From Desulfobaccales bacterium (GTDB taxonomy: Bacteria; Desulfobacterota; Desulfobaccia; Desulfobaccales; 0-14-0-80-60-11): a DNA stretch of 64,000 nt. The first letter of the stretch is position 1. Each line of letters opens with the position of its first letter. The notes beneath the pieces are model-generated. The model did no database searches. It worked only from the letters and a program-made list of their open reading frames with translations, and was not told the origin of the DNA. The DNA is taken from contig JBBFLF010000007.1 in assembly GCA_037481655.1 (NCBI GenBank), positions 1-64,000 of the forward strand, given 5' to 3'. The position numbers and the translations under genes were made by a program. Positions 775 to 2,696 of the stretch are shown in pieces.

Positions 775-1770
775 TCAACGCTTCAGCCAGGACATCATGC
801 CCCGGAGTTTTTTGCCCACTTCTTCGATGGGGTGGGCGGCTTCCAGGCGCCGGAGGGCGTTGAACACCGGCCGGCCCGCCTGGTTTTCCAGGATCCACTC
901 CTTGGCGAACTCGCCGGTCTGGACCTCATAAAGGATCTGGCGCATCTCCTCCCGGGTCTCCTCGGTGATGATGCGTTTGCCCCGGGTGTAGTCGCCGAAC
1001 TCGGCGGTGTCGGAGACGGAATAGCGCATATAGCTCAGGCCGCCCTGGTAGAAGAGGTCCACGATGAGCTTGAGTTCGTGCAGGCATTCAAAATAGGCGA
1101 TCTCCGGGGCGTAGCCCGCCTCCACCAGGGTGTCGAAACCGGCCTTCACCAGTTCGCTCACCCCGCCGCAGAGCACGCACTGCTCGCCGAAGAGGTCGGT
1201 TTCGGTCTCTTCCCGGAAGGTGGTCTCCAGGACTCCGGCCCGGGTGGCGCCGATGCCCTTGGCGTAGGCCAGGGCGGTCTTGAGGGCCTGCCCTGAGGCG
1301 TCCTGGTGCACCGCCACCAGGGACGGCACTCCGGCGCCTTTCTCGTATTCGCTCCGCACCAGGTGGCCGGGGCCTTTGGGGGCCACCATGACCACGTCGA
1401 TTTTCGGGTCCGGCACGATCTGGCCGTAGTGGATATTGAAGCCGTGGGAGAACATCAGGGTTTTGCCCGCGGTCAGGTGGGGTTTTAAGTCCTGCTCATA
1501 GATGCGGGCCTGGACGTGGTCGGGGGTGAGCATCTGCACCACCTGGGCCTGGGCCGCGGCCTCGGCGGCGCTCACCGGCTGGAAGCCATACTTCAGGGCC
1601 AGCTCGTAGTTGGGGGTACCGGGAACCTCGGACACCACCACTTCCACGCCGGAGTCCCGAAGATTGAGGGCCTGGGCATGGCCCTGGGACCCGAAGCCGA
1701 TGATGGCCACTTTTTTGCCCGCCAACACGCCCAAATCCGCATCCTGGTCATAGTAAATGGTTATGGCCAT
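775..1770 (-). CDS. ilvC: Ketol-acid reductoisomerase
   Basis: Second common step of valine and isoleucine synthesis: isomerises and reduces 2-acetolactate or 2-aceto-2-hydroxybutyrate with NADPH and Mg2+. The 331-residue length is that of class I enzymes. The Rossmann glycine motif GFGSQG is at residues 25-30, and the C-terminal knotted domain carries the acidic metal-ligand region [12 protein letters not shown]. The start at 1770 is chosen because AAAGGAG lies 5 nt before it; the in-frame ATG at 1785 is part of that ribosome binding site. It follows ilvB, ilvN and the DsrE-like gene in one operon; ilvD is not in the window. Confidence 0.97.
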
Positions 1771-1794
1771 GGAGGCTCCTTTCATAAGTCACGT

Positions 1795-2115
1795 TCAGTA
1801 GTTGAGAATCCGGTCGGCTTTCTTGACCTCGTCGTAGAGAATCTTCATGTTCCCCACTTTGATGGGGTCTTCGGCCTCCGCCCCGCGGAGGGCCAGGCAT
1901 TTCCCTCAGGCGAAGAGCTGCCCCTCGCTCAGGCCGAAGAGTTTGACCTGCTCCCGGATGGGGAACTGGGGGGAGTCGCCGGCATAGACGTCGGTGGCCG
2001 GCCCGTTGAGAAAGACCGTCACTTCCTCCCCTTCATTCAGCAGCACATTGGCAAACCGGAGGGCGTTCCACTTGATCTCCGGATCCGGACTGGAAATGAC
2101 GATGAGCACCTGCAT
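1795..2115 (-). CDS. DsrE-family selenoprotein (UGA read as selenocysteine)
   Basis: A small DsrE/sulfur-relay-like protein, 106 residues if the TGA at 1906-1908 is read as selenocysteine. Residues 1-69 start MQVLIVISSP and include NALRFANVLLNEG and FLNGPATD, typical of the fold. Sec70 then begins a U-G-K-C motif (Sec70, Cys73), replacing the C-x-x-C normally found in relatives, followed by LALRG. The frame stays open for 36 more codons and ends ILYDEVKKADRILNY, the expected C-terminal helix. A hairpin suited to a bacterial SECIS follows the UGA. The start at 2115 matches the family; a GTG at 2196 overlapping the ilvN stop (GTGA) is an alternative with an unconvincing extension. It sits between ilvN and ilvC. 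A sulfur- or redox-transfer role is inferred. If the UGA terminates, only a truncated 69-residue product results. Confidence 0.85.
1873..1908 (-). promoter_or_regulatory. Candidate bacterial SECIS element with Sec UGA codon
   Basis: Read on the minus strand, UGA (1908-1906) is followed after 21 nt by a 3-nt GGG loop. The loop is closed by six perfect pairs (CUCCGC with GCGGAG), then a bulged C and three more pairs (GGC with GCC). Bacterial SECIS elements lie in the coding region just after the UGA, typically with 16-37 nt between codon and apical loop and a G early in that loop. Both conditions are met. The pairing is read from sequence; SelB binding is inferred. Confidence 0.72.
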
Positions 2116-2192: not shown

Positions 2193-2696
2193 TCACTCCT
2201 TCTTGGCCCGCTGGATGGCCAAGGTGCCGCTGCGGACGATGTCCAGGATGCCGTGGCTTTTGAGCAGGCTCAAGACCGCCTGGATCTTTTCGTGGTTGCC
2301 GGTGATCTCCAGGGTGTAGGTGGTGGGGGAGACGTCCACCACCCGGCAGCGGAAGATGTCGGCGATGCGCAGGACCTCGGCCCGGGACTTGTCCTCGGCC
2401 TTGACCCTGACCATGGCCATCTCCCGCTCCACATGGTCCAGCTCGCTTAAGTCCACCACCTTCTGGGTGTTGATGAGCTTGCGGAGCTGCTTGATGATCT
2501 GCTCGATGATCTGCTCATCGCCGCTGGTCACCAGGGTGATGCGGGAGGTGTTGGGGTCCATGGTCTCGGCGACGCACAGGGATTCGATGTTGAAGCCCCG
2601 GCCGGAGAAAAGCCCGGTGACCCGGGAGAGCACCCCGGGCTGGTTGTCCACCCAGACGGAAATGGTATGGCGACGGTTCTTCTTGGTGGCTTCCAT
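2193..2696 (-). CDS. ilvN: Acetolactate synthase small (regulatory) subunit
   Basis: Regulatory partner of IlvB that gives valine feedback inhibition. The 167-residue protein begins with an ACT domain (HTISVWVDNQPGVLSRV, about 10-26, then GLFSGRGFNIESL), followed by the ALS small-subunit C-terminal domain. The start at 2696 is set by AGGGGAGG a few nucleotides upstream; a longer frame to 2765 lies inside ilvB and is rejected. It begins 11 nt after the ilvB stop. Its stop overlaps a GTG of the next frame. The symbol ilvH would be equally valid. Confidence 0.96.
   Translation of the reverse strand: MEATKKNRRHTISVWVDNQPGVLSRVTGLFSGRGFNIESLCVAETMDPNTSRITLVTSGDEQIIEQIIKQLRKLINTQKVVDLSELDHVEREMAMVRVKAEDKSRAEVLRIADIFRCRVVDVSPTTYTLEITGNHEKIQAVLSLLKSHGILDIVRSGTLAIQRAKKE

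Follow-up and report, generated by a model that had tools for sequence, protein, structure and literature searches.

The 64,000-nucleotide stretch of Desulfobaccales DNA analysed here (the window) carries a short minus-strand gene between ilvN and ilvC (Table 1). Its frame comprises 69 codons, an in-frame TGA at codon 70, and a further 36 codons before a TGA stop; translation reproduced the layout proposed in an earlier note on this DNA, in which the minus strand was implied by the coordinates and left unstated. The start Met is the one that begins the full-length relatives. The read-through product scored 40.2 bits in a Pfam profile search against DsrE (PF02635; gathering cut-off 22.7 bits; query with C substituted for U), and because the match covers residues 1–105, the DsrE domain spans the in-frame stop; no NCBIfam model matches the protein. 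Sequence comparisons make it almost certain that the UGA at codon 70 is read as selenocysteine (Sec), and that the gene truly belongs to the DsrE-like selenoproteins. Genes of this kind are routinely shortened or overlooked by standard annotation.

Table 1. Features of the DsrE-like selenoprotein locus in the window, and relatives lacking Cys73 (positions within their own loci)
Feature	Position	Strand	Basis
ilvC, ketol-acid reductoisomerase	775..1785	(-)	ORF list; downstream, 9 nt away
DsrE-like selenoprotein gene, 106 aa	1795..2115	(-)	ATG 2115-2113, stop TGA 1797-1795; translation with TGA=U
SECIS hairpin, 7-bp stem CCUCCGC/GCGGAGG, apical loop GGG at 1884-1882	1875..1891	(-)	pairing and covariation in relatives
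Cys73 codon TGC, second half of U-x-x-C	1897..1899	(-)	translation; not kept in all Sec relatives
UGA codon, predicted selenocysteine 70	1906..1908	(-)	TGA or Cys codon here in all full-length homologues; tRNA-Sec (TCA) in genome
ilvN, acetolactate synthase small subunit	2193..2696	(-)	ORF list; upstream, 77 nt away
Sec-containing DsrE-like genes without Cys73	L057, L058, L059, L060, L064-L067, L056, L074 2436-2747, L090 2001-2309		

Judging from the spacing, ilvN, the DsrE-like gene and ilvC probably share one transcript. The order ilvB-ilvN-dsrE-ilvC occurs only in four genomes belonging to two genera (G000–G003), and a functional tie to branched-chain amino acid synthesis was rejected on account of this confinement. 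Elsewhere in the taxonomic order, the ilvN-ilvC gap is either empty or filled by unrelated genes; differing unrelated genes (lipoprotein-like, coiled-coil) occupy it in L140, L143, L146, L156 and their relatives. Because the contents of the gap vary across the order, genes appear to move in and out of this site.

The search for relatives covered GTDB contigs, 59 near genomes, and 395 genomes of the phylum. Among the 79 distinct full-length homologue rows, 67 have TGA at codon 70 and the other 12 have Cys, with no other residue or stop at this position; the use of the window protein as the query biases the proportion of Sec rows. Homologues extend across dozens of Desulfobacterota genomes, and the TGA recurs in about 60 separately assembled genomes, which excludes a sequencing error. 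Two alternatives raised in the earlier note, a misread TGC or TGT at the codon and homologues ending before it, therefore did not hold: 67 full-length relatives run through the TGA and 12 carry Cys. The invariant alignment columns are E13, R20, F35, G65, U/C70, and G71, a set that does not include Cys73. In the gene tree, the window-type clade comprises 31 rows, of which 30 are Sec and 1 is Cys (support 100/99), and a second clade comprises 35 rows, all Sec (support 100/99); the starred branches require at least three changes between Sec and Cys. Among the pairs of relatives for which it was computable, pN/pS was 0.10–0.43 after the UGA versus 0–0.26 before it; purifying selection acts on the codons that follow the UGA.

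The copy in a congener, G002 (L025 5001-5314, L032 1501-1814), keeps TGA at codon 70 and carries a TAG and a frameshift downstream, with damage to the SECIS stem. This copy seems to be decaying, or else to contain assembly errors; being broken, it suggests that this congener may manage without the gene, provided that the assembly is sound. Another relative (L053 1498-1809, G142) combines the TGA at codon 70 with a TAG at codon 16, a Trp position in the others; mutation, error and a second recoding event are all candidate explanations.

The earlier note had described a hairpin of 6+3 bp with a GGG loop 21 nt after the UGA, and had taken it for a bacterial SECIS. The hairpin and its GGG loop are present (CCUCCGC-GGG-GCGGAGG), but in the register shared with relatives the stem has 7 bp, with the 5′ arm at +15 to +21 after the UGA, the loop from +22, and the 3′ arm at +25 to +31. 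Folded as a single sequence, it does not exceed shuffled versions of this GC-rich DNA in stability (z −0.4 to −1.5), and lone-hairpin folding was dropped as SECIS evidence because the shuffles fold equally well. Stem conservation and covariation across relatives nonetheless bear out the SECIS reading. Within the window's clade, 28 Sec genes have the stem paired in 98.0% of cells and a GGN loop, with compensatory changes at five of the seven stem pairs. Covariation scores 0.320 versus 0.155 in shuffles, with 0 of 500 shuffles as high, and at most 0.099 when the partner is slid by 1–3 columns; RNAalifold predicts the identical stem unaided. The hairpin is thus more than chance, being conserved and covarying across relatives. 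The same stem columns are paired in 98% of cells in 30 Sec genes versus 44% in 14 Cys homologues, most of which are without the stem; the exception among the latter is L055, the sole Cys form within the window's clade, which retains 6 of 7 pairs and may carry a remnant SECIS. In the second Sec clade, the apical loop is mostly of the GGUCU type.

Part of the stem encodes a conserved His-Gly-Val, which is self-pairing, so coding constraint contributes to the signal. It is not the whole explanation, because residue 80 switches between Glu and Asp in a way that lets its third base pair with base 1 of codon 76 in 26 of the 28 genes, and because residues 77 and 79 change jointly in the window copy. 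There, the pair G20-C26 stands in place of the usual A20-U26; the swap (CAC..GUG to CGC..GCG) replaces H/V with R/A, and pairing is kept. A covarying SECIS here alters the protein sequence so that the base pair persists.

The source genome (2.87 Mb, estimated 100% complete) was searched for the selenocysteine machinery. Hits to selA (617.1 bits), selB (350.8 bits), selD (365.2 bits), and a tRNA-Sec with anticodon TCA (73.8 bits) were all recovered, so the lack of machinery (selA, selB, selD, selC) that the earlier note had named as a ground for doubt does not apply. The selD gene (L010 1501-2421; C16:58829-59749) carries an in-frame TGA of its own, and its product is probably a selenoprotein too. 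The presence of selA was not kept as a discriminating criterion: the gene occurs in 69 of 70 genomes, most Cys-form genomes included, and so high a base rate makes it uninformative.

AlphaFold2 predicts a complete DsrE fold for the read-through protein (mean pLDDT 97.4, pTM 0.90), with the strands and helices after residue 70 included at high confidence; in the model, Sec70 ends strand 66–70 and precedes helix 71–76. By homology, it is the predicted active-site position. The best Foldseek match is Escherichia coli YchN (1jx7), followed by DsrE/DsrF-like proteins, 3mc3, and DsrEFH (2hy5); a single-sequence search against solved structures returned only profilin matches, which were judged chance. 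YchN shares the fold (TM 0.87 by query; profile match E 7.9e-7), and the first Cys of its C-x-x-C aligns with Sec70 of U70-x-x-C73; it differs in having Cys in place of Sec and is 22% identical in the structural alignment. The DsrE subunit of DsrEFH/TusD is likewise similar in fold (2hy5_A, TM 0.83), and its conserved Cys78 carries a persulfide and has been put forward as the superfamily's active site (PMC3397948). Unlike DsrE, however, the window protein has Sec at this site, and no DsrF or DsrH (TusC/TusB) genes were found next to its gene; the flanking genes are ilvN and ilvC, and identity as a DsrEFH/TusBCD subunit was set aside on that ground. According to PMC3397948, DsrEFH itself does not occur in sulfate reducers, which weighs against a sulfur-transfer role. 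The DsrE domain of YedF (TIGR03527) has a comparable CGxC motif, and its model weakly matches 9 of 41 family members; the window protein, however, lacks the N-terminal SirA domain and has no TIGR03527 match, and it was not assigned to YedF.

DsrE-like selenoproteins were first reported in 2005 and figure in papers of 2005, 2006, and 2008: they are described from a Sargasso Sea survey (Pfam02635, UxxC; Table 3 in PMC1088965), from Desulfovibrio vulgaris, with one such protein (PMC1794560), and from Global Ocean Sampling data, as DsrE 1 and 2 (PMC2398784). A 2026 review lists them among selenoproteins of largely unknown biological function (PMC13188914). The earlier note's statement that selenoprotein surveys mention such proteins agrees with these accounts. 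Compared by description only, the published proteins resemble that of the window in Pfam family, in Sec at the first position of U-x-x-C, and in a downstream SECIS; they differ in that the window gene lies outside Desulfovibrio and between ilvN and ilvC. Its product's relatives at 59–63% identity include Desulfovibrionaceae. As so described, the known DsrE-like UxxC family gains one member. The additions made here are an invariant Sec or Cys at position 70 together with a variable Cys73, and the placement between ilvN and ilvC in two genera only. The available portions of the four accounts (PMC1088965, PMC1794560, PMC2398784, PMC13188914) make no mention of Cys73 variability, and the UxxC label given there does not cover the Sec forms without Cys73 found among the relatives.

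The C-x-x-C motif proposed in the earlier note thus stands in part: U70-G-K-C73 and the LALRG that follows are present in the read-through translation, but the motif is not invariant in the family. Residue 73 is Cys in 56 Sec rows and another residue in 11 (Leu in 8, Ser in 1, Ala in 2), and the Leu73 forms sit at two separate places in the tree. The proteins of L057–L059 contain Sec and no Cys at all; therefore, the mechanism common to the family cannot be a redox pair of two residues. A one-residue mechanism would be more general than the UxxC pair, though the window protein holds both residues.

The following sequence of events is proposed. The mRNA hairpin 15–31 nt past the UGA would act as a bacterial SECIS, recruiting SelB and the Sec-tRNA (UCA anticodon); insertion of Sec at residue 70, with translation continuing to residue 106, is strongly supported by the comparative evidence. 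In the finished protein, of DsrE/YchN fold, Sec70 would occupy the position of the active-site Cys. As a nucleophile, Sec70 could accept sulfane sulfur, or a different oxidised group of sulfur or selenium, then pass it on or have it released. Where present, as here, Cys73 could resolve the adduct as an Se-S bond, which thioredoxin-type partners would reduce. We infer that Sec70 is the equivalent of the persulfide-carrying Cys, the residue-level alignment being with YchN and not with Cys78 of DsrE; a DsrE3A protein is known to carry a thiosulfonate (PMC4175335). Fold and homology point to a sulfane-sulfur carrier or reductase with Sec70 as the nucleophile as the most likely function, with a probability of roughly 0.55.

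Four readings of the gene were weighed. That the UGA is a true stop—leaving a pseudogene or a 69-residue protein, with the downstream frame due to chance or sequencing error—would accord with the ordinary folding of the lone hairpin for its GC content and with the broken copy in G002. However, the retention of TGA in some 60 genomes, the covarying SECIS, purifying selection past the UGA, the Sec machinery, and the complete fold leave this reading with a negligible chance, and conservation can be regarded as having already refuted it for the family. More serious is a thioredoxin-like thiol-disulfide (or peroxide) oxidoreductase of the UxxC type, in the same selenoprotein, with Cys73 as the resolving residue. 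The U-G-K-C of the window and the retention of Cys73 in most relatives (56 Sec rows versus 11) fit such a thiol-type redox enzyme as well; published tables class DsrE-like proteins among thiol-dependent redox selenoproteins (PMC1088965, as far as its tables describe them), and some relatives have redox neighbours (thioredoxin-reductase-like in L110, SQR-like in L129). We nevertheless consider it rather unlikely: the fold is that of DsrE/YchN and not of thioredoxin, and 11 Sec relatives have exchanged Cys73 for Leu, Ser, or Ala with Sec70 kept, Leu73 at two spots in the tree.

A further reading has the protein handle selenium rather than sulfur, as a YedF-like carrier feeding SelD or tRNA selenation. 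The weak TIGR03527 matches to aligned members reach 2.4e-5 at best, a selB-like GTPase gene (named from its sequence) lies two genes away in L126 and L127, and the DsrE domain of YedF, with its CGXC, has been linked to selenium genes (PMC5322559). Yet the YedF model leaves the window protein unmatched, and the neighbourhoods have no general association with sel genes; this reading appears improbable. Returning to the sulfane-sulfur carrier, a broader version can be entertained tentatively, on balance against the odds: that DsrE-like selenoproteins are widespread one-residue, Sec-based sulfur carriers in Desulfobacterota, in which Sec70 alone is essential, Cys73 is optional, transfer proceeds through a selenenyl persulfide, and Sec and Cys have been exchanged in several lineages. 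If true, this one-residue reading would correct the published UxxC redox label. The relatives with and without Cys73 offer a clean natural test of whether, in a sulfur-transfer fold, Sec works together with a resolving Cys or on its own.

The contexts of relatives vary widely, and no consistent partner gene (TusA, DsrC, SQR) was found for the family, which likewise counts against a role in sulfur transfer. Their neighbours include ArsR-type regulators, an ArsP-type permease, DsrC, an SQR-like protein, and a selB-like gene, and point to no single pathway. As a family-wide operon partner, the ArsR-type regulator cluster (16 members among the neighbours) was rejected, since it lies outside the window's lineage. 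ArsR-type regulators stand beside or near DsrE-like selenoprotein genes in L095, L107, L116, L123, and others (cluster c0), with an ArsP-type permease in L095 and L107; these neighbours hint at a role in the response to stress or metalloids, chiefly in the second clade. In L126, two tandem DsrC-like genes lie just upstream, besides the selB-like GTPase gene.
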